A DNA stretch of 35,473 bases, from positions 1 through 35,473 of the forward strand of contig MGTS01000008.1 of assembly GCA_001799565.1 (NCBI GenBank). The letters run 5' to 3'. The notes under the pieces were generated by a model. That model saw only the letters and a program-made list of their open reading frames with translations, made no database searches and was not told where the DNA came from. A program made the position numbers and the translations under genes. Shown here in pieces: positions 3,851-29,488 of this stretch (position 1 is its first letter; every line of letters begins with the position of its first letter). The DNA comes from Elusimicrobia bacterium GWA2_51_34 (GTDB taxonomy: Bacteria > Elusimicrobiota > Elusimicrobia > Elusimicrobiales > UBA9959).

Positions 3851-4486
3851 TTATTTCATACCCGGCAGTATAAATTGTATGGGTCTGTCGCGGCTGGGCA
3901 CATATTTAACCACTTCAAGCTTTTTACCCCCCACACAAAGATAGTCATAGCCGTCATTGCAGGCCGTGCCGTAAGGAGCGGCGCATATGGCCTGCTTCGG
4001 ATACTTGCACAAAATCTTCACTCCCGCGGGATTGGTTTCCACCGTAAGCGTTACCACATTCCATACCTGGGTGGTTACCACGTTCACATTAAGCGCGCGT
4101 AAATTAAGGAATTTCGCAGTGGACGGGCTGTTAAAACCCATATAGGCTTTCACTTTTTTCTCTATATCCGGCCTGAGCGTGCCCTGGTCCCAGCCGGCGT
4201 AATCGGCGTTTAAATGCGATTCAAGCTGCCAGCGCCTGGCCGCGTAAAACGAGGCGATTTCCATTTTTTGTACAAGCACCAGCAGGGCAAAAATCTTTGC
4301 CGTAAGAAGAACAATTATCATAAAAAGCGGAAACAGCAGCACGACTTCGGTCATTGCTTGTCCTTTCCGGCCACGCCGGAAAGGACGCCATAAGCCGTAA
4401 GCCATAGGCCATAAGCGGGAAGGATGCCATAAGCCGTAAGCCATAGGCCATATGTTTCTGAGAAATTTACCTGTAATAACTTTCAT
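3851..4486 (-). CDS. TadE-like pseudopilin with repeat-derived leader
   Basis: A 211-residue TadE-like minor pilin. The prepilin signature is RRGRKG|Q-AMTEV, with the inferred cleavage after Gly42, followed by one hydrophobic helix (residues about 48-70) and a C-terminal globular region with four cysteines in KILCKYPKQAICAAPYG.ACNDGYDYLC that may form disulphides in the periplasm. TadE-type proteins act in Flp pilus assembly after processing by the TadV/CpaA peptidase, which is not in this window. The leader is odd: residues 14-34 contain WPMAYGLW twice, encoded by intergenic-type repeats (4389-4451). The start is uncertain. ATG 4486 has GGAG 13 nt upstream, while a nearer ATG at 4496, out of frame, would encode only nine residues and end inside this gene. 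Last gene of the promoter-6236 operon. Confidence 0.85.
   Translation of the reverse strand: MKVITGKFLRNIWPMAYGLWHPSRLWPMAYGLWRPFRRGRKGQAMTEVVLLFPLFMIIVLLTAKIFALLVLVQKMEIASFYAARRWQLESHLNADYAGWDQGTLRPDIEKKVKAYMGFNSPSTAKFLNLRALNVNVVTTQVWNVVTLTVETNPAGVKILCKYPKQAICAAPYGTACNDGYDYLCVGGKKLEVVKYVPSRDRPIQFILPGMK
4360..4386 (-). repeat. 12-bp-stem inverted repeat encoding the prepilin cleavage site
   Basis: GTCCTTTCCGGC and GCCGGAAAGGAC flank a 3-base loop. On the coding strand the pair encodes R-P-F-R-R-G-R-K-G-Q, so the processing site lies in the second arm. A near-identical 12-bp stem with a 3-base loop occupies the same place in the neighbouring gene (5732-5758). Confidence 0.85.
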
Positions 4487-4562
4487 TTTCAGTCATAATC
4501 TCCACTTAATTTCACCCGCAGTACGTTCAGGCTTATGGCTTACGGCTTAAGGCATATGGCAT
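4389..4562. repeat. GCCATAA/GCCGTAA inverted word arrays, left arm inside the TadE-like gene
   Basis: Left arm 4389-4451 holds two copies of GCCATAAGCCGTAAGCCATAG followed by GCCATA (7-bp period). The right arm 4529-4562 holds the complementary CTTATGGCTTACGGCTTAAGG words and ends just 4 bp before the stop of the upstream gene. The spacer contains the start codon of the TadE-like gene. Confidence 0.85.
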
Positions 4563-4565
4563 TGT

Positions 4566-5783
4566 TTACGGATACAGCCTTGTTTGATACTTCGGCGTGG
4601 GATTAGGCCAGACGCAGTTATTTCCACCGCCAAGGCCGGAGCACTGGCTGGCTACCATCGCGTGCACGCAGGGGCGTCCCGTTTCGTTGCATGCGGCCAG
4701 GCTGTTAAAATCAACGCCGAAATAATTTGGGGGGGCATCCCAACCCTGGTAAACCTGATAGCCGCGGCCCAGGGCAGAAAGCGCTCCCGCGGTAACAGTG
4801 GCCAACTGAAAAAGGCCGGGAGCCGACATGGGCGCTGGGGGATTCGCGCGCGACAAACACGACGACAAATGAGTCATGGGGTCACAAACTATCACACTGT
4901 CAGGGCCATATGGCTTGCCAGGCATAGTCTTAGCGAAGTAACTTATATTGTTTATGTAGTACATGGCCATGCTCTTGGGCCTTGCCATTTTATTTGCCTT
5001 GAAGCCGCCGGGGCTGTCTATGCCGTCATTGCCGCAGGATTGGGGATTATTCACGCACTCTTTGGTGTTAGCGTTTAAAAAATATGATTTACGGAAAAAA
5101 TTAAAATTTTCAGTCAGCCGCTCAAACACCGTCATCTGGGATTCCTCAACCGCGCCGAGCAGAGTATAAACTTGGAGATAAAAACCATAAATGTTGACGG
5201 CCAACTCCCAGTCAAGAATCACGTCTTTGACCTGTTCGTATGCGAAAAGCTCAAGGACATCGGATCCGTGCGGGATGTCGGTGCCGGGAGGAGGGTTGTT
5301 ATTAAGGGTGGCCATAGTTGTAGGATTTGAGTTGATGCCAGGGCGATGTCTTTCATCAAACGCTATCTCCCACTTATTACTACCGCTAAGGTCCCGCGCA
5401 GGCTGGCGCGGCACGTCACCCTTATATTTAGGAAAAGCGCCGGACTTGTAGAGCATGTCGTATGTACACTCCCTGCCGCCGTCTTCGGTTGTCCTCCAGT
5501 TTCTGTCAGGGGGGCACTCGTACTGCTCTTTGAAAATGCGGTAAGGGAAGGCGCCATTGACATACGCGGTACGGTTCAGCAGATTCGTATAATCCCCCAT
5601 TTGTATGAAAGCGGCGGAATCAACGGCGAACTGCTGGCGGATTTTTTCCCGCGAAATTTTAGTGGTTTCAAAAATAAGATAAACAAAAAGGAGCAGAGAT
5701 GGAATAACAAGAAGAGAGGGAATAAGGATCTGCCCTTTCCGGCGCAGCCGGAAAGGGCTGAATTGGTCTATTACATGTTTCAT
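4566..5783 (-). CDS. TadG-like pilus assembly protein
   Basis: A 405-residue protein with an N-terminal prepilin-type segment: MKHVIDQFSPFRLRRKG|Q, then a hydrophobic helix (IPSLLVIPSLLLFVYLIF) followed by an amphipathic helix ending in QQFAVDSAAFIQMGDY. This order (processing site, TM helix, AVDSAA motif) is typical of TadG-like Flp pilus proteins. The large C-terminal part is extracytoplasmic, Asn/Pro/Gly-rich and has several cysteines (CPPD, CTYD, CVNNPQSC, CDP, CSGLGGGNNC) suggesting disulphides. No von Willebrand A domain was seen, unlike longer TadG proteins. I prefer ATG 5783, which gives a 17-residue leader, over GTG 5813 (ten residues longer, no Shine-Dalgarno). It lies between the Flp pilin and the TadE-like gene, presumably one operon. 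Confidence 0.75.
   Translation of the reverse strand: MKHVIDQFSPFRLRRKGQILIPSLLVIPSLLLFVYLIFETTKISREKIRQQFAVDSAAFIQMGDYTNLLNRTAYVNGAFPYRIFKEQYECPPDRNWRTTEDGGRECTYDMLYKSGAFPKYKGDVPRQPARDLSGSNKWEIAFDERHRPGINSNPTTMATLNNNPPPGTDIPHGSDVLELFAYEQVKDVILDWELAVNIYGFYLQVYTLLGAVEESQMTVFERLTENFNFFRKSYFLNANTKECVNNPQSCGNDGIDSPGGFKANKMARPKSMAMYYINNISYFAKTMPGKPYGPDSVIVCDPMTHLSSCLSRANPPAPMSAPGLFQLATVTAGALSALGRGYQVYQGWDAPPNYFGVDFNSLAACNETGRPCVHAMVASQCSGLGGGNNCVWPNPTPKYQTRLYP
5732..5758 (-). repeat. 12-bp-stem inverted repeat encoding the TadG-like cleavage site
   Basis: GCCCTTTCCGGC and GCCGGAAAGGGC with a 3-base loop, coding for S-P-F-R-L-R-R-K-G-Q. It matches the repeat at 4360-4386 in ten of twelve-plus stem positions, although the two encoded loop residues differ. 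Confidence 0.85.
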
Positions 5784-5862
5784 TTTAACGAAGCTCTTTA
5801 CCTTAAATTTCACTTACAGTCCACTCCGGCTTACGATTTAAAACCTATGGCACCTGTTTCTG

Positions 5863-5899
5863 CTTATGGCTTACGGCCTACGGCCTACGGCTTATGGCA
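5863..5899. repeat. TATGGC/TACGGC 7-bp word array (single arm)
   Basis: CTTATGG, CTTACGG, CCTACGG, CCTACGG, CTTATGG in direct 7-bp register in the 90-bp gap between the pilin and the TadG-like gene. No convincing inverted partner was found; a lone CTATGGC lies at about 5846. Confidence 0.75.
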
Positions 5900-5903
5900 T
5901 TTT

Positions 5904-6173
5904 TCACTTCGGCTGCCCGGCGCCTATGATCATGCCTACCATGGTAAACAGGCCGCCGAGAATTTTCTTGTGAAACAATATGCCCATTGCAAGCGCCACG
6001 CTTGCCACTACCGCGAGCATCAGCAGATATTCAACGGTAGTCTGGCCCTTGCGAAGGGTAGAGGGTATAGGGTATAGGGTATAGGGAAAACAAAAGCGAA
6101 TAGCGAATAGCGAACAGCAGGCATCCGGAAATACACACAGGAGCAGCGCTTTCATAAAGCTTTTTATAGTCAT
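5904..6173 (-). CDS. flp: Flp/Fap-type pilin with repeat-derived long leader
   Basis: An 89-residue major-pilin-type protein. The inferred mature part begins at Gln44 after RKG: Q-TTVEYLLMLAVVASVALAMG, a Flp pilin hydrophobic domain with the conserved Glu at position 5, then a short Gly-rich tail. Its relative at 24233 shares TVEYLLMLAVV, so two major-type pilins exist in the locus. The 43-residue leader is unusually long for Flp prepilins. It is encoded by GCGAATA and GGGTATA words (S-L-F-A-I-R-F-C-F-P-Y-T-L-Y-P-I-P), with LRKG in a small CCCTT-CGC-AAGGG stem. ATG 6173 has only a weak Shine-Dalgarno; no later in-frame ATG precedes the cleavage site except 6155. Transcribed from promoter 6236-6264. 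Confidence 0.88.
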   Translation of the reverse strand: MTIKSFMKALLLCVFPDACCSLFAIRFCFPYTLYPIPSTLRKGQTTVEYLLMLAVVASVALAMGILFHKKILGGLFTMVGMIIGAGQPK

Positions 6174-6232
6174 ATTCTTAACAGCTTTCCGCTTCCGACT
6201 ATTCGCTATTTGCTAACCCCTATTCACTATTC
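6046..6232. repeat. GGGTATA and GCGAATA heptamer arrays with inverted partner
   Basis: CCCTT-GCG-AAGGG at 6046-6058 is followed by GGGTAGA and GGGTATA units to about 6088, then GCGAATA, GCGAATA, GCGAACA, GCAGGC (6096-6122). The inverted partner, CTATTCG/CTATTTG/CTATTCA words, is at 6198-6232. The left part encodes the pilin leader; the right part falls at the predicted transcript start. The same GCGAATA word recurs at 10473 and 16520. Confidence 0.85.
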
Positions 6233-7182: not shown

Positions 7183-7265
7183 GTGATTGAGTGATGAAGT
7201 GATTGAGTGATTAAGTTTAACACGGGAAATTTCTTAAAAACTTAATTGTTCAATCGCTTAATCAC
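7183..7265. repeat. GTGATTGA / TTAATCAC inverted octamer arrays
   Basis: Left arm GTGATTGA, GTGATGAA, GTGATTGA, GTGATTAA (8-bp period, 7183-7214). The right arm CTTAATTGTTCAATCGCTTAATCAC (7241-7265 in two pieces) overlaps the stop codon of the receiver-kinase gene. About 20 of 25 positions of the arms can pair. Confidence 0.85.
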
Positions 7266-8422
7266 TGTTTACCCTTTACCGGCGCGCTCTCTGCGGACGG
7301 CGGTTCCTTGGCGAAAGGTATGGTAAACTTGAAAGCCGCACCCTTGCCCACGCCCGGACTTTCCACCCAGATCTTCCCCTCGTGCGTCTGCACTATCTCT
7401 CTTGCTATAGAAAGCCCGAGGCCGAGGCGGCCATGCGGCGACTTGCCGCCCGCCGGCTGGTAAAAACTCTGAAAAAGTTTAGGCAGCTCCACGGGGTCTA
7501 TGCCCTCACCGGTATCTTTTACGGAAACACAAACAGCGTCTTCAAGGGGATCAACATGTACCGTTATTTTTCCACCGCGCTGTGTATGGCGCACCGCGTT
7601 TTCAAGCAGGTTTAAAAGCACCTGCGTTATACGCCGCTTGTCGGCGCATACCATCCGAAGCCCGGAGGCGGCAACCTGCGTACCCACCTCTATGTTTTTC
7701 TGCGAGGCGCGGGCCCTGGGCCCTGTCACTATCTCTTCCACCATTTTATCCATCTCAAAATAATTTTTTTCAAGCCGGAACTTACCCTGTTCTATGGAGG
7801 CCCAGTCCACCAGGTCACCTATCAGGCGCGAAATCTGCACGATGCTGGTGTTGATGAAATCCATTTTCTTTTTTTGGTCTTCATTGGGCTCAATGGTGGA
7901 AGCCAGCATCTCAAAGCTTATCTGCAGCGTCATCAGAGAATTTGACAGATCATGCGAGGCCATGGACATAAACTTGGACTTCATATTGTTCAGGCGCTCA
8001 AGCTCGCCGTTATTATGCTTGAGCATGTCTATAAGACGTTTATTCTCCTGCTCCAGATAAAGTTTTTCTTCCGCTTTTTTAATGGCACGGCGCAGATAAT
8101 TAAAATCCACCGGCTTTATAAGAAAATCGTAAACGGATTCCTGTATGGCTTTTACCGCGGTATCAAGCGAGGCGTGGGCGGTCATCATCAGTATCTGGCT
8201 GTCGGTATTTAATTTGCGGATGTCTTTTATCACTTCTATGCCGGTTTTGTCGGTGAGATTAAAATCCATCAGGATAACATGAAAAAAATCCGATACCACC
8301 ATTCGCATGGCTTCAGCGCCGCTGGCGGCGTCAAAAACCTTGTAGCCTTCCATTTCAAGCAGATCGCGCAGGGTTTCCCGCAGGTGGGCGTCGTCGTCAA
8401 CTATCAAGATTTTACTTTCCAT
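7262..8422 (-). CDS. Receiver-histidine kinase hybrid (soluble)
   Basis: A 386-residue cytoplasmic protein with no TM helix. The N-terminal receiver (residues 3-118) has Asp9-Asp11, acceptor Asp53 (ILMDF), Thr81 and Lys103. A coiled-coil linker (about 115-145) leads to a HisKA domain with His157 in MASHDLSNSL and a HATPase with N-box Asn275 (LLENAVRHT), G1 DTGEGI (303-308) and G2 GRLGLGLS (331-338). A receiver placed before the kinase suggests that it integrates a phosphosignal from another kinase, probably the membrane sensor encoded upstream (8577), and passes it to the NarL-type regulator downstream. The receiver is clearly related to the lone receiver at 12096 (DDDAHLRE near the start in both). 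The stop lies in the right arm of a repeat. Confidence 0.93.
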   Translation of the reverse strand: MESKILIVDDDAHLRETLRDLLEMEGYKVFDAASGAEAMRMVVSDFFHVILMDFNLTDKTGIEVIKDIRKLNTDSQILMMTAHASLDTAVKAIQESVYDFLIKPVDFNYLRRAIKKAEEKLYLEQENKRLIDMLKHNNGELERLNNMKSKFMSMASHDLSNSLMTLQISFEMLASTIEPNEDQKKKMDFINTSIVQISRLIGDLVDWASIEQGKFRLEKNYFEMDKMVEEIVTGPRARASQKNIEVGTQVAASGLRMVCADKRRITQVLLNLLENAVRHTQRGGKITVHVDPLEDAVCVSVKDTGEGIDPVELPKLFQSFYQPAGGKSPHGRLGLGLSIAREIVQTHEGKIWVESPGVGKGAAFKFTIPFAKEPPSAESAPVKGKQ

Positions 8423-8448: not shown

Positions 8449-8555
8449 CTAGTAGGTTAGTATGCGGGTAGGCTGGTATGCTTAACGGCACCGATAAAAG
8501 CAGGCGGGCATGTGTTTTAGGCCTACTAGCTTACCAGCCTACAAGCCTACTGGCA
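8449..8555. repeat. CTAGTAGG / CCTACTAG inverted octamer arrays
   Basis: Left arm CTAGTAGG, TTAGTATG, CGGGTAGG, CTGGTATG (8449-8480, 8-bp period). The right arm GCCTACTAGCTTACCAG, CCTACAAG, CCTACTGG (8520-8555) is complementary. It fills the 154-bp gap between the two kinase genes. The same word family recurs at 13409-13459. Confidence 0.85.
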
Positions 8556-10460: not shown

Positions 10461-10472
10461 ATAATAAACGCA

Positions 10473-10553
10473 GCGAATAGCGAATAGGGGTTAGCGAATA
10501 GGGGAGGAACCGGAACTTTATTTAAGGAACTCCGCCACTATTCGCTAATCACT
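10473..10553. repeat. GCGAATA inverted arrays with AAGGAACTCC core
   Basis: Left arm GCGAATA, GCGAATA, GGGGTTA, GCGAATA (10473-10500). Core TTAAGGAACTCCGCC lies at 10522-10536. The right arm ACTATTCGCTAATCACTA reaches the stop of the next gene (10552). Same word as at 6096 and 16520. Confidence 0.85.
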
Positions 10554-12099
10554 ACTTAGCGCAGCCGGCTCCGCCGGAGTCGGGCAACGACATCTTTTCA
10601 AAGCCGGGGATTTTGACAAGTTCGCCTAGCCCCACCATAAAAAACCTGCCCTCCCACACAAAAGAAGGGGACGTGCTTATGGAAAGCGCGTTAGCGATAA
10701 CCAGATCGTCAGCCAGAAGTTTTTCTCCGGCAGCGGCCGCGGAGGCGACTTTTTTTGAATTAATACCGGCCTTTGCCGCCGAATCCTCCCAGGGAACGGA
10801 GGTAATATTTTTATTCCGCTCCATAAGATACCCGTAAAATTTATCAGGGAAATCCCGCGCGATAACAAGCTGGCGCAGATTCTCCTGCCACTCCGGCGCG
10901 CCGTGCAGGCTTTGGAAATTATATGATCCGTTTTGTTTTTTTTCAGCGTCACCTATATAATGTATTTCCAGTTTCAGGCCAGCCGGCAGAAGATTCTTGT
11001 TTTTTGCCTCAAGCAAAGCGTTTTCGGCCTGCGTGCCGAACGGACAGTAGGACATTACAAAAAGTTCAAGTGTATTGGGCCGCAAGGCACGACCCGGATA
11101 CATGCCGGTGCGCTGACGGTCGTGGTAAACCAGCCAGCCCTCCGCCTCCCTGAAAATGCCGGCCTTTATTTCAGAATCCAGACGCTCTTTCGCGGCAGCA
11201 CTGGCCTCAATGGCGTAGGCGGGCGTAAAATCAAGCGAAGGAATTTTTGACGCCCTGACGGCCGAGGAATAGTCAAGGAATTCCGGTTTTATTCCCTCAA
11301 AATATTTTTCAAAAACTCCGAGCAGCGCGTCATTCTTTTGCGAGAAAGGGCCGGAACTCAGGACCACAAGCAGCTGCGGCGGTTGCACCTTAATTCTGTT
11401 AATGTACGACTTGGGCAGCGCCGCGCGGCTGTGTTCCGGCAGAACCGCGTTTACGGCCTCTAAAAGCGGCAGAAGACGCAAGGGGCCGGAATAAACTTTA
11501 CCGTTTATCAGGAAAGCCGCGCTCTTAACGCCGGCTTTTTGGGAGCGGTTATAGGCGGCCAGAAGCGCCGCCTGACCTTCAACCTCGGACTTTTTAGCGA
11601 GTTCCGCCGGGTCAAGGCCGCTAAAAACAGCGGCATCCCGCCACCCGTCGGCCATAGGGCTGAGCGATCTGGCGTTTAAATAAGTAAGCAGCTTTTCCGG
11701 ATAAACAGCGGCAAGAACCGCCAGGCGCATAGATTCAGCCAACTCCGCCTCGCCCCGTTTAGCTTCAAATTCACCCCCCGCATTCTTTACAACCAGCGGA
11801 TAGACTTTCAATTCCGGGTTCCCAACACGTTTTCGCACGGTGTCAATAAGAAAAAATTCCTGCCAGCCCTGGCCGTCCATGGCCTCAAAAAAAAGTTCAA
11901 GTTTAACCCCCGCGGTGACAGGCGCGGCCACAAGAGCACAGGAGCACAGGAGTACAAGAACGCAGGAACACAGGAGCGCAGAAACACCAGTATAAGTATT
12001 TCTTATTTGTGACTTGTGTGCCTGTACTCTTGCTCCTTGCTTGAGCCTCTTGCTTGTAACTTGTGCTCCTGTGCTCATGTGGCGCTGTAGAGTGGTCAT
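10552..12099 (-). CDS. Exported thioredoxin-fold protein with single-Cys CPFG motif
   Basis: About 515 residues. The C-terminal third begins with ELFVMSYCPFGTQAEN, a DsbA/GILT-like entry strand. The motif is C-P-F-G (Cys near residue 351) rather than CxxC, and is followed by a conserved-looking LHG..EW.EN helix and a SPSFVWEGRFF cis-Pro-type strand. The N-terminal part has a second thioredoxin-like pattern (KLELFFEAMDG, then AAFLINGKVYSGP) without cysteine, so tandem Trx folds are likely. A lone resolving Cys near the C-terminus (GGAGCAK) might pair with the active Cys. I choose ATG 12099: it overlaps the upstream stop by ATGA and follows AAGGAAAGG. The first 60 residues, including the putative signal core (ALLCSCVLVLLCSCALVA), are encoded by repeat words. 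It might reduce or isomerise disulphides in Cys-rich pilus proteins (inference). Confidence 0.72.
   Translation of the reverse strand: MTTLQRHMSTGAQVTSKRLKQGARVQAHKSQIRNTYTGVSALLCSCVLVLLCSCALVAAPVTAGVKLELFFEAMDGQGWQEFFLIDTVRKRVGNPELKVYPLVVKNAGGEFEAKRGEAELAESMRLAVLAAVYPEKLLTYLNARSLSPMADGWRDAAVFSGLDPAELAKKSEVEGQAALLAAYNRSQKAGVKSAAFLINGKVYSGPLRLLPLLEAVNAVLPEHSRAALPKSYINRIKVQPPQLLVVLSSGPFSQKNDALLGVFEKYFEGIKPEFLDYSSAVRASKIPSLDFTPAYAIEASAAAKERLDSEIKAGIFREAEGWLVYHDRQRTGMYPGRALRPNTLELFVMSYCPFGTQAENALLEAKNKNLLPAGLKLEIHYIGDAEKKQNGSYNFQSLHGAPEWQENLRQLVIARDFPDKFYGYLMERNKNITSVPWEDSAAKAGINSKKVASAAAAGEKLLADDLVIANALSISTSPSFVWEGRFFMVGLGELVKIPGFEKMSLPDSGGAGCAK
11931..12080. repeat. GAGCACAG / CTTGTGCTCCTG octamer arrays, both arms inside a gene
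   Basis: Left arm: GAGCACAG, GAGCACAG, GAGTACAA, GAACGCAG, GAACACAG, GAGCGCAG (8-bp period, about 11935-11982). Right arm: CTTGTGTG, CCTGTACT, CTTGCTC and similar words up to CTCCTGTGCTCATG (about 12013-12080). Both arms and the spacer lie in the frame of the thioredoxin-fold gene and encode its N-terminal signal region. Confidence 0.85.
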
Positions 12100-12473: not shown

Positions 12474-12495
12474 AATTTAAAACCTCCGTAAAATA

Positions 12496-12599
12496 GTCAC
12501 AAGTTGCATGTCACAAGTCACAAGTATTTGGGGTCTTACCGAACTTAATATCTCCCAATATAACTCTGGCTTGTGACCTGTGACTTGAAACCTGTGACA
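12496..12599. repeat. GTCACAA / TTGTGAC inverted heptamer arrays
   Basis: Left arm GTCACAA, GTTGCAT, GTCACAA, GTCACAA, GT (12496-12525). The right arm CTTGTGACCTGTGACTTGAAACCTGTGAC occupies 12571-12598 and runs into a separate hairpin at the stop of the next gene. Confidence 0.85.
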
Positions 12600-12623
12600 A
12601 AATAACGCTACGCGTTATTTTGT
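12597..12623 (-). terminator. 12-bp hairpin containing the stop codon of the OmpR-type gene
   Basis: ACAAAATAACGC and GCGTTATTTTGT flank a 3-base loop; the TAA stop (12615-12617) is inside the arm. On the coding strand the stem is A-rich then T-rich (TTATTTT), which could act as a weak intrinsic terminator. Similar stop-embedded hairpins with a central GCGC-like part occur at 17668 and 24831. Confidence 0.5.
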
Positions 12624-15111: not shown

Positions 15112-15197
15112 AACTGGAGGATTGGAGGACTAGAAGAGTAGAGGATTAGACGGGAAAAGATATGAGGAACTCATTCCTCTAATCCTCCAGTCCTCTA
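15112..15197. repeat. GAGGATTG / CTAATCCTC inverted octamer arrays
   Basis: Left arm GAGGATTG, GAGGACTA, GAAGAGTA, GAGGATTA (15116-15147). Core GAGGAACTCATTCCTC at 15164-15179, itself nearly palindromic. The right arm CTAATCCTCCAGTCCTCTA ends at the stop of the TPR gene. Confidence 0.85.
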
Positions 15198-15198
15198 T

Positions 15199-16599
15199 TT
15201 ACCGCCCGCCGGCCAGGGTCTGTTCTATACGTTTTAAGCCGGCGGCGGAGTCGGAGTCGTTGGGATCAAGCTGTCTTGCTATCAGCCACTCGTCGCGGGC
15301 CTTTTCATAATTAGCGTTCTGGAAGTACTTGAGGCCTTCCACGTAATGAAGCTGGGCGGCCAAACGATTTTCCTCTGTTACGCCCTGCGGCTTAGCCTTA
15401 GCTTCCTCAAGAGCCCCCCCTTTGCGCTTGGCCTCCTCCGCGGCCTTCTTACTTTCCTCTTCCTCTGTTTTTCGTCTGGCTTCTTCCTCTTTAACGCGGC
15501 GTGCGGCTTCTTCCGAGCGGCGGCGCTTTTCACCGGCTTCAATACTCATCTGCTCTCTGGCGCGGGCCACTAATTTGTCAAGGTAGGAACTGTTTGCGGA
15601 GTAAGGCCTCGCGTTATTCCACTCGTCCATAGCAGCGGTATAGCGGCGGGCGGAATAGAGTTTCTTCCCGCTTGAAATATAACTTCGCTCTATTTCACCC
15701 TTGACTTCGTTTAAAAGCTTGTTTGCCTTGGAATCACCAGGTTGGATTTCCAGAACCTGTGCAAGGCCTTCACAGGCTGCTTTAAGCTTCCCCTGGGCGT
15801 AAAACTCAAGCGCCGCTTTCAAACGGTCGTTGGCCCGTTCCTGCCGCAACTCATCTTCTATACGTGTAATCCACTGCACGGTAACGGTATCCCTGGGCCT
15901 GATGAACAGAGCGTTATAGAGGTTGTCAAGCGCCCCTTTTAAATCCCGCGCCTTGTACGCGGCTTCACCTTCCTGAAAATAATACTGCTTTAAGTCGTCC
16001 TTCATGCGCCCCAGCCAGTATTTGGCCTTAATATTGCTGGGAGAAAGTTTCTCCACCTCCTGCATTTTTTTATACGCCGCAATTATGCGGCCTTCGTTAT
16101 AGAACGACAGAGCGCTTTTAAAGCGGTCTTCAATCATGATTTTTTCAGACATGAACGCGCGCTGCCCCCCGCGCAGCTGGTCAGCGGCTTCGAGAAGCAT
16201 GGAAGCGTCGTTAAAATTGGGGTCTATGGAAAGTATTTTAGCGGCCAGATCATGGGCCTCTTCGTAGCTGCCCTGTCGGTAATACGCAAAAGCGTTTTCG
16301 TAAATGCTTTCCAGCATTTTCCGCTGGATTTTTTCTTTCTCTATCTGAACAGTGCCTAAAAACCGCTTTTTTTCCTCAAACTCGCTAAGCGAACCGAGGC
16401 CGGTTTTCTGCAAATTCAGAAAAAGCGATTCCTCGCTTTTCACCTTCAGTCTCTCCTGGGCGAAAAGAAGGGTAGAGGGGTTAGGGGTTAGGGTAGAGGC
16501 GAAAATCAACAACAAGAAAGCGAATAGCGAATAGCGAACAGCAGGGGTCTCCTGATTACCACTATTCACTTTCTCACTATTTGCTATTAGTTTACTCAT
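15199..16599 (-). CDS. Exported TPR protein (TadD-like role possible)
   Basis: A 466-residue protein with at least six TPR-type units (for example YRQGSYEEAHDLAAKILSID, YNEGRIIAAYKKMQEVEKL, YKARDLKGALDNLYNALFI, YAQGKLKAACEGLAQVLEI, YSARRYTAAMDEWN, FQNANYEKARDEWLIARQLD) and a highly charged Glu/Lys/Arg helical linker before the last one (about 345-405). Residues 25-48 form a signal peptide (FAFLLLIFASTL, cleavage near LLFAQE) largely encoded by GCGAATA and GGGTTAG words. TPR proteins such as TadD assist assembly of the Tad secretin and platform, and this one lies directly downstream of tadC. ATG 16599 has AGGAAG about 11 nt upstream. Confidence 0.78.
   Translation of the reverse strand: MSKLIANSEKVNSGNQETPAVRYSLFAFLLLIFASTLTPNPSTLLFAQERLKVKSEESLFLNLQKTGLGSLSEFEEKKRFLGTVQIEKEKIQRKMLESIYENAFAYYRQGSYEEAHDLAAKILSIDPNFNDASMLLEAADQLRGGQRAFMSEKIMIEDRFKSALSFYNEGRIIAAYKKMQEVEKLSPSNIKAKYWLGRMKDDLKQYYFQEGEAAYKARDLKGALDNLYNALFIRPRDTVTVQWITRIEDELRQERANDRLKAALEFYAQGKLKAACEGLAQVLEIQPGDSKANKLLNEVKGEIERSYISSGKKLYSARRYTAAMDEWNNARPYSANSSYLDKLVARAREQMSIEAGEKRRRSEEAARRVKEEEARRKTEEEESKKAAEEAKRKGGALEEAKAKPQGVTEENRLAAQLHYVEGLKYFQNANYEKARDEWLIARQLDPNDSDSAAGLKRIEQTLAGGR
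16471..16591. repeat. GGGTTAG and GCGAATA arrays inside the TPR gene signal peptide
   Basis: GGTAGAG, GGGTTAG, GGGTTAG, GGTAGAG (16471-16499) and GCGAATA, GCGAATA, GCGAACA, GCAGGGG (16520-16547), with the inverted partner CTATTCA, CTTTCTC, ACTATTTG, CTATTAG (16562-16591). All of it is in frame with the first 45 codons. Confidence 0.85.
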
Positions 16600-16633
16600 A
16601 TATTCGCCATCTTCCTATTCGTTATTCGCTTCT

Positions 16634-17667: not shown

Positions 17668-17692
17668 AATCATAGCGCTTTGCGCTATGATT
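17668..17692 (-). other. 11-bp hairpin overlapping the tadB stop codon
   Basis: AATCATAGCGC and GCGCTATGATT are a perfect stem with a TTT loop. The tadB stop (17691-17693) lies in the arm. No T-run follows, so it is more likely an RNA-processing or stability element than an intrinsic terminator. Confidence 0.7.
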
Positions 17693-19290: not shown

Positions 19291-19395
19291 GGTTACTGGT
19301 TACTGGTTACTGGTTACTGGTTACTGGTTACTGGTTACTGGTTACTGGTTACTGGTTACTGGTTACTGGTTACTGGTTACTGGTTACTGGTTACT
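19291..19395. repeat. Fifteen perfect GGTTACT heptamers between cpaF and tadB
   Basis: Exactly fifteen uninterrupted copies (105 bp), preceded by a partly inverted GGTAACC. The array ends 4 bp before the cpaF stop codon (19400). Period 7 is not a multiple of three, but the array is non-coding here. Perfect identity means recent expansion; variable copy number between strains is expected. Confidence 0.97.
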
Positions 19396-19399
19396 TCCT

Positions 19400-21628
19400 C
19401 TACCTGCCAGCCCTCTGCTTCTTCTGCTCCTCCGTCCAGAACATATCTATCGGCACGTTCATACCGTTTGCCTGAAAATCATTAAAGAACTTGGGCGGAT
19501 CACCGGTGGCGTTAAATTCGCCGATAACCTTTCCGCTTTCATCCACCCCTGTCTGTTTGTATTTGAAAAGATCATGGGTCTGTATCTGGGTTTCTTCCCG
19601 GCCGGTTATTTCAGTAATGGCGGTAATTTTCCTGGTGCCGTCGGAAAACCGGGTCAGCTGCACGATCAGGTGCACAGCCGAGGTTATCATCTCGCGAAGC
19701 GCCCAGATAGGCAGGTCGGCGCCCGCCATAAGACACATCGCCTCCAAACGGGTAAGAGCGTCGCGCGGAGTGTTGGCGTGAATAGTGGCAAGCGATCCCT
19801 CATGGCCCGTGTTCATAGCCTGTAACATATCCAAAGCTTCGGAACCGCGGACTTCGCCGACCACTATACGGTCGGGGCGCATACGCAGGCAGTTCTTTAC
19901 CAGATCCCGTATGCTGACCTCGCCTTTGCCTTCTATATTGGGTGGACGACTTTCAAGGCGCACCCAGTGGTCCTGCTGAAGCCTCAATTCAGCCGTATCC
20001 TCCACGGTAACAATGCGCTCCTCTTCGGAAATATAGCTTGAAAGCATATTAAGGAAAGTGGTTTTACCGGTGCCGGTGCCGCCGGAGATGATGACGGCCT
20101 TGCGAAGCTTCACGCAGGCTTTTAAAAAGTCCACCGCGGTCTGGGAAATACTGCCTTTTCTTATAAGTTCTGTATCGGTAAAGGGTTTAGCCGAAAAGCG
20201 CCGTATAGTGAGAGTCGGCCCCGAAATCGCAAGCGGCGGGATAATAGCGTTTACGCGCGAGCCGTCCTTCAAGCGCGCGTCCACTAGCGGCACGGATTCG
20301 TCTATGCGCCGGCCAAGAGGGGCGACTATCCTTTTAATAACCTGCATGATCTGGTCATCGCTCCTGAACCGGTATTTAGTGAGCGTCAGCTTGCCAGCCC
20401 TTTCTATAAACACACGGTCAGCCGAGTTTACCATGATTTCGGTTACTGCCGGGTCGCGCATCAGCTCTTCCAGCGGGCCAAGGCCCAGGATCTCGTCAAG
20501 AAGCTCATTTATAAACTTAACCCGCTGCTCCCTGGTAAGAGGGTTGGAAGTTTCTTTTTGAAGGAGCCCGTTGATGATAAGGTCCACTTTTTTGCGGGTT
20601 TCCGCGTTGACGGCCACATCGTCGCTTATTTTTACGCGCTCAGTTTCAAGCGCCGCCACCACATTGCGGTGCACCGACATTTTCAATTCTTCCCAGAAAG
20701 GCGGAACATCCACTCTTAAGGCGTTGGATTGATAGGTTCCGGATTCCCGCTTTTCGGGAGCCGCCGGACCGGTTTTTTCCAGTTGGCGCCAGAGCATGTC
20801 GGAACCGTGCGCGAATTCCTGGGAAGAAACGTTTGAAACCCACTGTTTTTCAGAAGGCTTCAGTTCGGTCAGGCGGCCGAGCAGCACGCGCAAAACATGC
20901 ACCCACTGGGTATTTGGCTGTTCAGTTATTAACAGCTTGTTCCGGTTCGCGCAACCGGGCATGGCGTCTTCCCAGGGCATGAAGGCAAGGGGTTGCCGGC
21001 CCAGCTGCGTGAAGAATTTTTCCACTTCTTTGGGCTCCACCGCTCCCGGCATGTCATAGAGGTTCACCACCGGCTCGAACCTGTTCATCGGAAAATGAAG
21101 TTCATTTATCTCGCGGAAAGTGGCGGCGGAAGCGTTCAGGGAATTGACATTTGAATTAGTTACCCAGAAAACCAGATCTGAAATATCAAACGCGAAAATC
21201 TGCATGGGAAAATAGGAGTCAACGTCTATAAAAATGTCAAAAGACTGGTTGAGCCGTGAAAGTATGGGCAAAATCAGCTCGGGAGACATCTTTGAGACAT
21301 CCTGGCGTTTTTTGCTCAGCGGCAGCACACCCACGCCCCACTGTGAAATAGGTATTTTCCCCCGAAGCAGCGCGCCCACGGCCCCCACGGATTCCCGCCC
21401 CATCAGTTGGACAATTTCGGACAACGACGGCGGATTGACGCCCAACAGGGCGGCATGCTCCTGACGGCACAACGGGTCCAAAGGCACTATAAGGACATTG
21501 CGTTTCTGATGACTGGCCCAGGCGAGGGCAAGGTTAAGGGCAATGGAGGTCTTTCCCACGCCCTCTTTGGGACCCGAGAAAGCTATAACTCTGGAAGCGG
21601 TATTCTGCTTTTCCATGGTTTCCGCCAT
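19400..21628 (-). CDS. cpaF: CpaE-CpaF fusion: ParA/MinD-like ATPase joined to Tad pilus ATPase
   Basis: A 742-residue fusion. Residues 1-255 are a CpaE/MinD-like domain with a deviant Walker A ([10 protein letters not shown], 19-28), the IDVDS motif at 134-138, and NVNSLNASA. Residues about 300-742 are a full CpaF/TadA type IV secretion ATPase: the N-terminal domain ([15 protein letters not shown]), Walker A GGTGTGKT (516-523), Asp box VEDTAEL, Walker [10 protein letters not shown] and the His box [13 protein letters not shown] (607-619). CpaF powers pilus assembly with TadB/TadC; CpaE localises it. In most Tad loci these are two genes. I annotate ATG 21628, supplied by a GTATGGC word of the flanking repeat; ATG 21616 is an alternative. 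All catalytic residues are intact. Confidence 0.94.
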
Positions 21629-21629
21629 A

Positions 21630-21708
21630 CGCCTTAAGCCCTAAGCCATAGGCCATAGGCTATAAGGAACTCCTCAAACTTATGGCTTATGGCATACGGC
21701 CTATGGCA
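21630..21708. repeat. GCCATAG inverted arrays with AAGGAACTCC core
   Basis: Left arm GCCTTAA, GCCCTAA, GCCATAG, GCCATAG, GCTATA (21632-21664), core AAGGAACTCCTCAAA (21664-21678), right arm CTTATGG, CTTATGG, CATACGG, CCTATGG (21679-21706). About 23 of 30 arm positions pair, with the core as the loop. The clearest example of the family. Confidence 0.9.
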
Positions 21709-22446: not shown

Positions 22447-22469
22447 AGCCATCTCCTCAATGTTAGCGG

Positions 22470-22551
22470 CGAGTGGTTAGTGACTAGTGGCTAATGATTA
22501 AAAATATAAAGAACTCCTACACTAGCCACTATCCACTAATCACTAGCCACT
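22470..22551. repeat. AGTGGTT / AACCACT-type inverted heptamer arrays with AAAGAACTCC core
   Basis: Left arm AGTGGTT, AGTGACT, AGTGGCT, AATGATT (22471-22498), core AAAGAACTCCTAC (22508-22520), right arm CACTAGCCACTATCCACTAATCACTAGCCAC (two phased parts, 22521-22551). 20 of 24 compared positions pair. Confidence 0.88.
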
Positions 22552-23306
22552 TACTTTATCAGCCGCTTGAAACTCGCTATCTCCATGGGGTGCAGTTCCA
22601 CGTCGCCAAGACCGCGCACCGCCACCGAAACATCTCCCTGCCTCATTGAAAGCGCGAGGTACTGCGCTTCGTTCGGATTAAGCGCCAGGCTCAAAGCCCC
22701 TTTTTCTGAAAAAGCCTGATCCGCCGCTTCCTGGCCGGACTTGGCCTTGGCCTGTGCCGCGGACAGACCCTGCCCCAGGTTTACGCCGACTCCCAGCACC
22801 AGCACATTCTGCAGTATGGTAGCCGTAACCTTTTCCTTGCGGTTATCGCCCATAACGGCGTCAAAGGTGACAAGCACATCTATTTTGTCGCCGGGCTTAA
22901 TAAGGCGCATCAAGTCGTTTTCCAGGGGCATCATACAACCGCGGTATCCCGGCGGCACCTTAACACTTAAGCCCGCCTCGGGGCTTAACGGGATCAGCGC
23001 CGACTGCGTTATCTGATTGCCTTTCGGGATCCTTATGGCGGTCACAAGGTTATTGACCAGCTTAATATCGGAATTACTGCGTATTTCATAGGCGTCCTGC
23101 TGCATATATATACGCGGAATTCTAACCACCTCAACCAGGTCACTCTTCAGAATAGTGCGCGCCGGCAATTCGTAATTAGCCACCAGCACCGAGGCTTCCT
23201 CGTGCGCCTGGGCAAGCGCGCGCTCCTTAGAGGTAAGCACAAACCAGTAAATAGCGGACGCGGCCAAAGCCAGTATCAAGGGTAAAAGCACGCCTTTCTT
23301 TTCCAT
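22551..23306 (-). CDS. cpaB: Flp pilus assembly protein CpaB/RcpC
   Basis: A 251-residue protein. A single N-terminal TM helix (about 5-24) is followed by an SAF-like domain (ASVLVANYELPARTILKSDL, about 39-105) and the RcpC/CpaB domain with GCMMPLENDLMRLIKPGDKI DVLVTF and a second strand region ending in GDVSVAVRGLGDVE. CpaB is a periplasmic partner of the CpaC secretin. Start ATG 23306 is chosen because AGGAGAA is 7 nt upstream; an upstream ATG (23351) would add 15 non-conserved residues. Its stop is in the arm of the neighbouring repeat. Confidence 0.92.
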   Translation of the reverse strand: MEKKGVLLPLILALAASAIYWFVLTSKERALAQAHEEASVLVANYELPARTILKSDLVEVVRIPRIYMQQDAYEIRSNSDIKLVNNLVTAIRIPKGNQITQSALIPLSPEAGLSVKVPPGYRGCMMPLENDLMRLIKPGDKIDVLVTFDAVMGDNRKEKVTATILQNVLVLGVGVNLGQGLSAAQAKAKSGQEAADQAFSEKGALSLALNPNEAQYLALSMRQGDVSVAVRGLGDVELHPMEIASFKRLIK

Positions 23307-23453: not shown

Positions 23454-24089
23454 TTACTGACGCAATGGCGTCTCTATAGGCATCATAACCGTCACCTTTA
23501 TCGTTTTTACGCGCTTAGTCCTTGGCGCATCGGATAAAAAAAAACTTGAGCCTGGAAAAATCAGTTTTGCCGGATAAACAAGCGTCACCACCAGGTCCTG
23601 CCCCCGCTGCCTGGACTGCCTATCATAGAGAGTTTTTTCCGTTGAAGCCGAGAGCTGGATACTTGAGGAATTGGGGAACATCTCTTTAAGCACGGCGTTC
23701 ATTTTTGACAACTGATTTCCACCTCCGGAGCCACCGCCACTCGGGCCCGCCACCAGGGAGCCTATACGAGCCAGTTCATAGGCACAGTGGTGGGCCAGAA
23801 TGGTCTGATAAGCGAGGTTACCTACTTCCATGATGAAAAAAAGCATCAGCATGAAAACCGGCAGTACCAACAGCAGTTCCACTGTAACCTGTCCAGCTCT
23901 TTTGGCTGAGTGACGGATGTTATGTAAGCCGGACATAAACCTGGAACCCAACCTCTCCAGCCAAAAGGGCTGGATCTGCCCGGCTTTCATTATTTTCAAA
24001 GAACATTTACCCGCGGCGTTGCGCACTCTATGCGCGAAAGCGCCTGTAAAAAGCTCAAAGAAGCCTATTGGAGCTTCCATGACAATCAC
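23454..24089 (-). CDS. TadE-like pseudopilin with very long leader
   Basis: A TadE-like minor pilin whose core is HSAKRAG|QVTVELLLVLPVFMLMLFFIM: prepilin site, conserved Glu at +5 and one hydrophobic helix. The mature part has a Gly/Ser-rich loop and a C-terminal strand region ending near PLRQ, about 145 residues. GTG 24089 has a perfect GGAGG 5 nt upstream and would give an unusually long 66-residue leader. ATG 23936 would give a typical leader of 15 residues (MSGLHNIRHSAKRAG) but has only weak CAGG. It lies in the loop of an inverted repeat (23893-23973) whose second arm encodes AKRAG. If translation starts at 24089 the extra sequence should be cleaved off. Confidence 0.82.
   Translation of the reverse strand: MIVMEAPIGFFELFTGAFAHRVRNAAGKCSLKIMKAGQIQPFWLERLGSRFMSGLHNIRHSAKRAGQVTVELLLVLPVFMLMLFFIMEVGNLAYQTILAHHCAYELARIGSLVAGPSGGGSGGGNQLSKMNAVLKEMFPNSSSIQLSASTEKTLYDRQSRQRGQDLVVTLVYPAKLIFPGSSFFLSDAPRTKRVKTIKVTVMMPIETPLRQ
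23893..23973 (-). repeat. 17-bp inverted repeat around the TadE-like cleavage site
   Basis: CCAGCTCTTTTGGCTGA (23893-23909) and CCAGCCAAAAGGGCTGG (23957-23973) are inverted copies with two mismatches. The arm nearest the core encodes S-A-K-R-A-G. The alternative ATG 23936 and its weak Shine-Dalgarno are in the loop. Confidence 0.75.
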
Positions 24090-24110
24090 GAACACCTCCC
24101 CTCCACAATA

Positions 24111-24179
24111 GGTTAGAGGGGCAAAGGCAGAGGGTACAGAAACAAGGAACTCCTTACCCTAAAACCCCAGACCCTGCCC
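24111..24179. repeat. GGTTAGAGGGGC / CCCTA-CCCTG inverted arrays with AAGGAACTCC core
   Basis: Left arm GGTTAGA, GGGGCAA, AGGCAGA, GGGTA (24111-24136), core CAAGGAACTCCTT (24143-24155), right arm TACCCTAAAACCCCAGACCC. A GTCCGCC-type repeat (24177-24211) follows, related to 165-231. Confidence 0.8.
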
Positions 24180-24232: not shown

Positions 24233-24424
24233 TTAATTGTTGCCTTGGGAAGCGCCAAGAGAGTTGGCCGCACCGGTAATCATACCCTGTATCTGGCCGA
24301 ACAGGGCCGGCATATATTTTTTAAGCGCGATGCCGGCTATAAGAACAACGCCCACCACAACCGCCAACATCAACAGATATTCCACGGTATTCTGGCCGAG
24401 CCTGTTCTTGAATATTTTTTTCAT
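24233..24424 (-). CDS. flp: Flp pilin (classical short leader)
   Basis: A 63-residue pilin. Leader MKKIFKNRLG is cleaved before Q-NTVEYLLMLAVVVGVVLIAG, with Glu5 present, then a short tail ending in SLGASQGNN. Its leader has the typical length and no repeat sequence, unlike the pilin at 5904, so it is the reference for normal processing here. GGAGG is 11 nt upstream of ATG 24424, slightly long; an upstream frame to 24490 looks non-coding. Followed by the TadE-like gene. Confidence 0.92.
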   Translation of the reverse strand: MKKIFKNRLGQNTVEYLLMLAVVVGVVLIAGIALKKYMPALFGQIQGMITGAANSLGASQGNN

Positions 24425-24504: not shown

Positions 24505-24735
24505 CTAATTTGGGGACTGTTTGTACATCCTCATCACGACAATTCCGCCCGCTCTGAACTCCTTTTTGAGATACCACTGCAGGGATCGGTAAAGACCCAC
24601 AAAAACAACCAAAAGCGCGACGGTAACCAGTATATACTCTACGGTCGTCTGGCCGTAACGACGCCGTAAGCCGTAAGCCTTAGGCAGAAAGATTGCCATA
24701 GGCTTTAGGCCGTAGGCTGTACGCAGAAACCTCAT
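24505..24735 (-). CDS. Flp-like small pilin with repeat-derived leader
   Basis: A 76-residue pilin-type protein. The inferred cleavage site is RRRYG|QTTVEYILVTVALLVVFVGLY, with the TVEY signature and Glu5, then a charged amphipathic end. It has one hydrophobic helix and no extended globular part. Residues 6-23 of the leader contain TAYGLKPMA and PKAYGLR, encoded by GCCATAG/GCCGTAA words. Two possible starts: ATG 24735 (28-residue leader) and ATG 24699 (16 residues). Neither has a good Shine-Dalgarno; AAGGAG of the repeat core is 18 nt from the first. Located just upstream of the flp pilin (24233) and possibly co-transcribed. Confidence 0.8.
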   Translation of the reverse strand: MRFLRTAYGLKPMAIFLPKAYGLRRRYGQTTVEYILVTVALLVVFVGLYRSLQWYLKKEFRAGGIVVMRMYKQSPN

Positions 24736-24826
24736 ATTGTAGGCCGTAAAGAACTCCTTACAAGTCTATGGCCTAAAGCATACGGCCTATGGCGATAGCC
24801 GTATCTAAAACTTACGGCTTATGGCA
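24656..24826. repeat. GCCGTAA/GCCATAG inverted arrays with AAAGAACTCC core
   Basis: Left arm (24663-24723) has GCCGTAA, GCCGTAA, GCCTTAG and later GCCATAG-type words and encodes the pilin leader. Core AAAGAACTCCTTAC at 24748-24761. The right arm CTATGG, CCTAAAG, CATACGG, CCTATGG (24766-24793) continues in a second segment, CTTACGGCTTATGGC (24811-24825). Confidence 0.85.
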
Positions 24827-24830
24827 ATTA

Positions 24831-24848
24831 TAGCGCATTGCGCCGCTA
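24831..24848 (-). other. Small hairpin at the stop of the PorV-like gene
   Basis: TAGCG (24831-24835) and CGCTA (24844-24848) pair, with GCGC-ATT-GCGC as an alternative inner stem. The TAG stop (24846-24848) is in the arm. This is the third stop-embedded hairpin (others at 12597 and 17668). Confidence 0.45.
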
Positions 24849-25859
24849 AAACTGAAATTTAAGCGCCAGCTGGCTCGCCTTGCCCAAAGCTCCGTAAGGC
24901 ACCATAGTGTAATCCAGGCCCATGCCATAACCCAGCGCCTGGGCGCTAAAAATGCCTATGCCGAAAGCCCAGCCGGAGGTGTCTTTCATTCCCAGGGTGT
25001 CCAGGGTCTTGTCATCCATGTTTTTACCGTGATTGTCCGCCGCGGTATAACCGGCGCGAAAGCTGACACGCCCCACCTGAAGCACTTCCTCCGGCAAATT
25101 GAACTCCACTCCGAAGCCGGTCTTCGCGCCGCTGTCCGAATATATTTTTTGTTCAAGCGCGGCGGTAAGAAAAGAATTAAAAGAATACGCAAGCCCAAGG
25201 CGCTGTACTTTTACCACCTCTTTGGCCTTGCCGGAGAAATTCTGACCCGCCCAGCCCAAAGAAAACTTGCGGCCAAGCTTAATCACCGCGCCCGCGTCAA
25301 AAACCAGGTTCTGATATTTTTTAACGTAGTTATCCTCCATTACCTCTTTCGCGCTCACGCCGACCAGGAACTTTTCAAGAAAGAAACTCTTGGCGAGCGT
25401 AAGCGCCGCGTAGCCATTGCGCACTTTAACATCGGTACCGTACTGGGGCACGCCTTCCTGATCGCGCACATCAAAATTTTTAGTGCCGTAGTACTCCACG
25501 CTAAGCCCCACCACCGATTGGCCTACGGGGTGCACGTAGCCCAGATACTGACCGCCGTAATCCTGAAGCCAGCTAAGGTAAGAAAAAGAAACCTCCCTCA
25601 TCTGCGAGGAGGCGATACCAGCCGGGTTTACGCCCATGGCTTCCGCGCCCTCCACCAGGGAAACGCCGCAGTTCCCAAGAGCCTGCACCCGGGAACTGCT
25701 GGTGGGAATTTTTAAAAACACCGCGCCATAAGTGCCGACGTTATTGTCCGAGGCTAAAAGAAAAGATGAGGGCAGAGGGTAAAGGGTAAAGGCCAAAACG
25801 AACAGCAGAACATATCTGTTTTTGGGTGTTCCGGCCGCCGCGTTTTTTTTCCTTCCCAT
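24846..25859 (-). CDS. PorV/PorQ-like outer-membrane barrel protein
   Basis: A 337-residue barrel. It contains SSRVQALGNCGVSLVEGAEAMGVNPAGIA near the start of the mature protein, the PorV/PorQ-family N-terminal hallmark (short version of GARAAGMGNAFAAVADDPSAVYWNPAG), then repeating strand pairs ending in LALKFQF. Related to the gene at 31511. In type IX secretion PorV holds the A-LPS-linked cargo, but many phyla carry relatives without a known T9SS. The signal peptide (residues about 17-36) includes AFTLYPLPSSFLLAS, encoded by GGGTAAA and GGCAGAG words. Weak Shine-Dalgarno. Confidence 0.85.
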   Translation of the reverse strand: MGRKKNAAAGTPKNRYVLLFVLAFTLYPLPSSFLLASDNNVGTYGAVFLKIPTSSSRVQALGNCGVSLVEGAEAMGVNPAGIASSQMREVSFSYLSWLQDYGGQYLGYVHPVGQSVVGLSVEYYGTKNFDVRDQEGVPQYGTDVKVRNGYAALTLAKSFFLEKFLVGVSAKEVMEDNYVKKYQNLVFDAGAVIKLGRKFSLGWAGQNFSGKAKEVVKVQRLGLAYSFNSFLTAALEQKIYSDSGAKTGFGVEFNLPEEVLQVGRVSFRAGYTAADNHGKNMDDKTLDTLGMKDTSGWAFGIGIFSAQALGYGMGLDYTMVPYGALGKASQLALKFQF

Positions 25860-29403: not shown

Positions 29404-29488
29404 AGGCTATAGGCTGTAGGCTATTAGGCTGTTAGCCAATTGTGTTTCTACTTCTTACCTGATAGTCTAACTGCCTACAGCCTATCCA
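29404..29488. repeat. AGGCTAT / ATAGCCT inverted arrays
   Basis: Left arm AGGCTAT, AGGCTGT, AGGCTATT, AGGCTGTT (29404-29433). Right arm CTGCCTACAGCCTAT (29471-29485). No GGAACTCC core. Confidence 0.8.

Follow-up and report, generated by a model that had tools for sequence, protein, structure and literature searches.

Hairpins over the cleavage-site codons of minor Tad prepilins in one clade of Elusimicrobiota

The leader DNA of minor Tad prepilins (TadE-like, TadG-like and some Flp-like paralogues) contains, in a single elusimicrobial clade, a perfect hairpin of 11–14 bp with a 3-nt loop, the 3′ arm of which consists of the codons of the basic cleavage motif R/G-R-K-G|Q (the bar marks the cleavage). 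The hairpin is real, exceeds what codon-aware chance would yield and turns up in the same position across differing genes, genera and sequences, and its pairing is kept through two-sided, mostly silent changes. The reading that we favor, and to which we give about an even chance of being right, is that of a clade-specific RNA hairpin in the leaders of minor pilins, probably born by template switching, kept by compensatory change and perhaps damping minor-pilin translation. One and the same stretch holds two codes, a protease-site peptide and a paired nucleic acid, and compensatory changes that are mostly silent keep both.

The Tad locus and its two leader hairpins

The window, i.e., the whole stretch of 35,473 nucleotides that was analysed, belongs to a genome of 2.63 Mb in 43 contigs (G000) and holds a Tad pilus locus, Pfam searches having identified a TadA-type ATPase, a T2SSF protein, a secretin, RcpC/CpaB and TadE, the components by which such a locus is recognized, along with Flp-like prepilins (Table 1). 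The proteins P0001 and P0002, which fall under the Pfam cut-offs, were assigned by their cleavage motif, hydrophobic segment and gene order. Homologues of the TadG-like protein occur in 77 of the 81 genomes searched, its named relatives all being Elusimicrobiota or bacterial MAGs. TadE- and TadG-like proteins are taken here to be minor pilins and the conserved Flp the major one, as is generally assumed for Tad pili. The window also encodes a PorV-family-like protein (24846-25859) and, within a gene for a large repeat-domain protein, a 282-bp tandem repeat in 2.6 copies (33485-34221).

Table 1. Prepilin genes, leader hairpins and inverted-repeat arms in the window
Feature	Position	Strand	Remarks
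TadE-like minor prepilin gene	3851..4486	-	Pfam TadE under cut-off
Perfect 12-bp stem, 3-nt loop, TadE-like leader	4360..4386	-	3′ arm encodes G-R-K-G|Q
Downstream heptad-repeat arm in TadE-like leader	4424..4449	-	pairs with 4530-4555 around the ATG at 4486
Upstream heptad-repeat arm	4530..4555	-	partner of 4424-4449
TadG-like minor prepilin gene	4566..5813	-	probable start ATG 16 codons ahead of cleavage site; Pfam Tad under cut-off
Perfect 12-bp stem, 3-nt loop, TadG-like leader	5732..5758	-	3′ arm encodes R-R-K-G|Q
Flp-like prepilin gene	5904..6173	-	contains 5-bp stem 6046-6058, within chance
Second TadE gene	23454..24095	-	Pfam TadE over cut-off; without local cleavage-site hairpin
Downstream arm of wide inverted repeat, second TadE leader	23892..23908	-	A-K-R-A-G codons
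Upstream arm of wide inverted repeat, second TadE	23958..23974	-	49-nt spacer includes ATG
Conserved short-leader Flp pilin	24233..24424	-	without hairpin; negative control

An earlier, sequence-only reading had credited four pilin-type genes of the window with cleavage-site stems. Two of these, the 12-bp stems with 3-nt loops in the TadE-like and TadG-like leaders, lie exactly where they had been placed. The former has the letters GTCCTTTCCGGC-CAC-GCCGGAAAGGAC, its mRNA reading GTCCTTTCCGGC-GTG-GCCGGAAAGGAC (RPFRRGRK|GQ), and the latter the letters GCCCTTTCCGGC-GCA-GCCGGAAAGGGC, with GCCCTTTCCGGC-TGC-GCCGGAAAGGGC in the mRNA (SPFRLRRK|GQ); the coding of R-R-K-G by the second arm, proposed for both, is thus correct for the TadG-like stem, the TadE-like arm encoding G-R-K-G. 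Of the four genes, these two remain in the window. The 5-bp stem of the Flp-like gene is within chance (codon null p about 0.10, fold z = -0.6), and the 17-nt arms at the second TadE gene do exist and are 94% complementary, but are held apart by their spacer and are absent from the predicted fold. These arms flank the ATG of MSGLHNIRHSAKRAG|Q, and two relatives (G001 and G002) keep the CTTTTGG / CCAAAAGGG core of this wide repeat, for which the conserved residues FW and KR could account.

Perfect stems of at least 12 bp with loops of 3–8 nt number 3 in the window as against 0.07 expected under a first-order Markov model of the window, the third being a non-coding hairpin at a stop codon. RNA folding of the TadE-like and TadG-like hairpins yields z = -4.8 and -4.9. 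When the amino acids were held fixed and the codons drawn by usage, the TadG-like hairpin was equalled in 2/40000 draws (p 5e-5) and the TadE-like one in 29/40000 (p 7e-4); the structure of both stems goes beyond what protein and codon usage demand. An Rfam covariance-model search of the window gave no match, hence no known RNA family. An intrinsic terminator was rejected, the stems being followed by GGGCAGATCC and GGACAAGCAA with no T-run on their 3′ side. A dispersed palindromic repeat of the REP, MITE or RPE type was likewise rejected, the genome holding two copies, both in prepilin leaders; indeed, CCTTTCCGGCNNNGCCGGAAAGG occurs in the 2.63 Mb in these two leaders only, with one further match that has three mismatches.

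The TadE-like leader also contains two copies of a 39-bp unit (4377-4452) that end in the left arm of the hairpin, and the same two-unit layout is seen in the Flp leader of G010, another gene in another genus, as if leader cassettes moved between prepilin genes.

Occurrence of the hairpin in related genomes

From about 47 genomes of the family, 125 leaders were taken (cluster-1 TadG, TadE and Flp, plus some paralogues); perfect stems of at least 10 bp were found in 9/125 leader windows as against 0/1340 windows in the TadE/TadG gene bodies. Stems of 11–14 bp at the same place are present in a minority of genomes, mainly in the TadE, TadG and Flp-like genes of one Tad cluster, most relatives being without a stem. 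Nine leaders have codon-null p values between about 5e-5 and 1e-3, namely TadG and TadE of the genome under study, TadG of G010 and of G019, TadE of G004, G038, G001 and G002, and an Flp paralogue of G015; furthermore, a 14-bp stem is found in TadG of G004 and a 12-bp stem, with a weaker p (181/40000), in Flp of G010.

The core palindrome has three sites in G010, corresponding to TadE, TadG and Flp of one cluster, and a single copy, at a prepilin, in both G019 and G015; in G004 it is located at TadG, TadE and a further Flp paralogue, a different palindrome occupying four other sites. Apart from these four copies, matches of the shorter pattern TTTCCGG-N5-CCGGAAA outside pilin genes are sporadic in the other genomes. 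Three types of stem sequence can be distinguished: CCTTTCCGGC, CCCTTGCGCC and CTGCCC[C/T]CGCC. The first two may be homologous since they encode the near-identical peptides RPFRRGRKGQ and RPLRRGRKGQ, whereas the third (CPRRRRGQ) is not homologous to either, so that at least two, perhaps three, independent stem sequences exist. Within the genus, a TadE stem of 11–12 bp is present in 3/3 species, being of the first type in the species under study and of the third in both sisters, and no comparable stem is found in TadG of the two sisters.

The hairpin is specific yet lineage-limited. Once the hairpin-bearing leaders are taken out, no clear excess of structure remains at the cleavage site across the family, and a family-wide structure was accordingly rejected. 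A general prepilin feature was rejected as well: no hairpin of 11–14 bp occurs in cluster-2 TadE and Flp (except the Flp paralogue of G004/G015), in the type IV (N_methyl) prepilins of the genome or in the conserved Flp, whose leader ends in NRK|GQNTVEY; for the window's own copy, this absence confirms what had been read from the letters. Relatives outside the family have short leaders with no strong stems. Finally, N-terminal palindromes are not a general trait of the genome: in a survey of sampled stretches, about 390 kb, or 425 kb with the window, only two of about 350 other genes have N-terminal stems of at least 11 bp, one inside a membrane protein and the other at an ORF's 5′ end, where the true start may be further in.

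Compensatory changes and the nature of the mismatches

In the register common to these hairpins the center falls on a third codon position, which sets third positions opposite each other and allows paired changes to be silent. Thus, the TadE stems of G001 and G002 differ by CCC:CGG vs CCT:CGA, silent on both sides, and those of G000 and G038 have different letters at three facing pairs of third positions, with one Phe-to-Leu replacement and five silent changes among the six. In 12 leaders 96.5% of the cells pair and two-sided changes affect four pairs; the covariation score of these 12 related leaders, from which the structure itself was derived, is 0.215 vs 0.098 after shuffling and was matched in 0/500 shuffles.

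Since the hairpin of some relatives occupies the corresponding position with both arms spelled differently, the pairing itself seems to be kept. The earlier proposal that pairing rather than protein sequence is conserved therefore finds support from both of the checks suggested for it: two-sided changes do exist among the relatives' leaders, in few and related rows, and codon preference for Arg-Lys-Gly fails to explain the stems of 11–14 bp.

The type of mismatch bears on the level at which pairing takes place, in that DNA-only pairing would leave G·U and A·C about equal. The non-Watson-Crick cells of 15 leaders number 12, i.e., 7 U·G, 4 C-C, 1 G-A and no A·C, and the resulting G·U : A·C ratio of 7:0 (p = 0.016, or less significant should two of the seven go back to a single event) suggests that the pairing occurs at the RNA level.

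Inverted repeats in the intergenic gaps

Arrays of 7–8 bp units lie between the genes of these genomes, with an inverted counterpart built from the same unit close by. Co-directional gaps reach a self-complementarity score of 14.0 vs 9.0 when shuffled and 7.9 between different gaps, the latter difference indicating that a heptad unit is largely private to its gap. The arms of 90 such gaps of the genome show 155 G·U vs 160 A·C mismatches, a strand symmetry by which the intergenic repeats show no RNA-level selection.

Ahead of genes with a leader or signal peptide, the repeat often has its second arm within the leader and the start codon in its loop, as with the heptad arms of the TadE-like gene and with 24663-24717/24771-24825. 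The repeat loops that hold start codons of such genes span 4424-4555, 6092-6214, 16518-16631, 23892-23974 and 24663-24825, and the repeat arms supply part of the leader-peptide codons (e.g., for MAYGLW and RYSLFAF), likewise in G001, G002, G010, G015 and G048. The left arm of the leader hairpin is preceded by, or consists of, the last heptad unit in several genomes and could plausibly have come from the arrays.

Arrays with an inverted partner occupy most gaps of the window (e.g., 7190-7266, 8459-8551, 10472-10554, 12495-12598, 15113-15197, 21624-21707, 22459-22557, 24663-24825 and 29404-29485), and perfect hairpins with 3-nt loops adjoin such arrays at two stop codons (12597-12623, 12 bp, the non-coding one mentioned above, and 17668-17692, 11 bp). 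A perfect run of GGTTACT x15 separates two genes at 19291-19395. A conserved palindromic core, TAAGGARYTCCTTA, sits between two heptad arms (e.g., G000:C4:7676 and G000:C9:3795), related forms being found at 24144 and 24747 of the window; it has both a Shine-Dalgarno-like and an anti-Shine-Dalgarno-like half. Its exact copies number 18 in G000, 12-13 in the sisters, 39 in G004 and 27 in G015, with none in most other relatives, and the reversed control has 0 in G000, the sisters, G004 and G015. A 12-mer count detected about 61 copies of a repeat with GTTCCCCACACGTGTGGGGATGAACCG, probably a CRISPR array, in stretch L078 (G000:C7:1-20000).

Origin and possible role

The hairpin probably arose when template switching duplicated the cleavage-site codons in inverted orientation within a leader whose protein sequence is weakly constrained, the inverted copy being tolerated because the leader is cut off, and the pairing would afterwards have been retained at the RNA level. 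The weakest step of the reconstruction is the last, by which the mRNA hairpin might make early translation lower or slower for the minor pilins than for the conserved Flp, in which no such hairpin was ever seen. That cleavage-site codons doubling as a stem, with wobble facing wobble, tune minor- versus major-pilin output in this way is a tentative suggestion, and one that we hold to be rather doubtful. The patchy spread, the few and related rows and a G·U test on 7 events all count against the favored reading, and the Flp hairpin of G010 blurs the minor-pilin rule.

The alternative that survives best, a serious one although we consider it less probable than the RNA hairpin, is a by-product at the DNA level: template switching would continually make and repair inverted repeats with no RNA function, and these would survive in prepilin leaders only because nearly every sequence is acceptable there as long as it ends in basic residues and G|Q. 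Such an origin agrees with the patchy distribution, with genomes rich in intergenic inverted repeats that have private heptad units and strand-symmetric mismatches, with a left arm that often continues the last heptad unit and with the known ability of template switching to produce and preserve perfect stems whose changes look compensatory (PMC8794818). On the other hand, the leader stems show G·U and no A·C, the same place and geometry are kept with unrelated sequences, and the surveyed genes are nearly free of N-terminal stems, though signal peptides should tolerate them. One genome thus offers a natural contrast between leader hairpins with G·U only and strand-symmetric intergenic inverted repeats, and with it a direct way to test whether RNA selection or DNA template switching is at work.

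A pause in translation where the membrane segment begins, aiding co-translational membrane targeting, had been put forward together with the first description of the stems and would fit their distance, which is fixed relative to the cleavage site and membrane segment and not to the start codon. A ribosome meeting the stem would, given established ribosome spacing, stall ahead of membrane-segment translation, when no targeting signal is yet exposed; the pause is therefore the least likely of the functional versions. Furthermore, a hairpin of this size is absent from most TadE/TadG homologues, from the conserved Flp, from the second-cluster TadE and from the type IV prepilins tested, all of which need the same targeting, so that the hairpin is no general prepilin or membrane-targeting signal and the proposal is very unlikely to hold. 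More improbable still is a dyad-symmetric site bound by a sequence-specific pilin-gene regulator: within one genome a perfect dyad is indeed common to several prepilin genes, but its letters differ between sister species while the pairing is kept, and its distance to the start codon varies. Least probable of all is chance or codon preference for Arg-Lys-Gly, which accounts for the weak stems that GC-rich Arg/Ala/Pro codons yield, such as 6046-6058 and the RPAARAG hairpins of genus g4 (p 0.06-0.14, not above codon bias), but which the codon-aware nulls, significant in several unrelated sequences, and the empty control windows refute for the stems of 11–14 bp.

Comparison with known systems

A limited search of the open-access literature found no published description of a coding hairpin in prepilin leaders. 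Rickettsia palindromic elements and related in-frame palindromic repeats constitute one dispersed family inserted in many unrelated genes. Like these, the leader hairpin is a small palindrome within an open reading frame; unlike them, it is confined to prepilin leaders and its sequence varies between relatives.

The nearest described cases are the coding palindromes of Nematomorpha (PMC6649704) and the hairpins made by template switching (PMC8794818). In the mitochondrial genes of Nematomorpha the coding palindromes reach 284 bp and are spread over the genes (PMC6649704); they have in common with the leader stems that perfect inverted repeats reside in coding genes and that protein and pairing are kept together, whereas the leader stems, 11–14 bp in length, occupy one functional site of one bacterial gene type. 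Template switching during replication (quasipalindrome correction), described for RNA genes, creates and maintains hairpins (PMC8794818), and its perfect stems and multi-base compensatory changes resemble those of the leaders, for which it represents a plausible origin; on the other hand, the leader stems lie in protein-coding leaders and their mismatches are G·U-biased. The intergenic 7-bp arrays of the genome, finally, recall the short tandemly repeated heptanucleotides of cyanobacteria and the TAACTGA repeats of Beggiatoaceae, 7-bp intergenic units that are often near start codons (PMC4679880), from which they differ in that each gap has its own unit, an inverted array is nearby and the arms enter leader-coding sequence.
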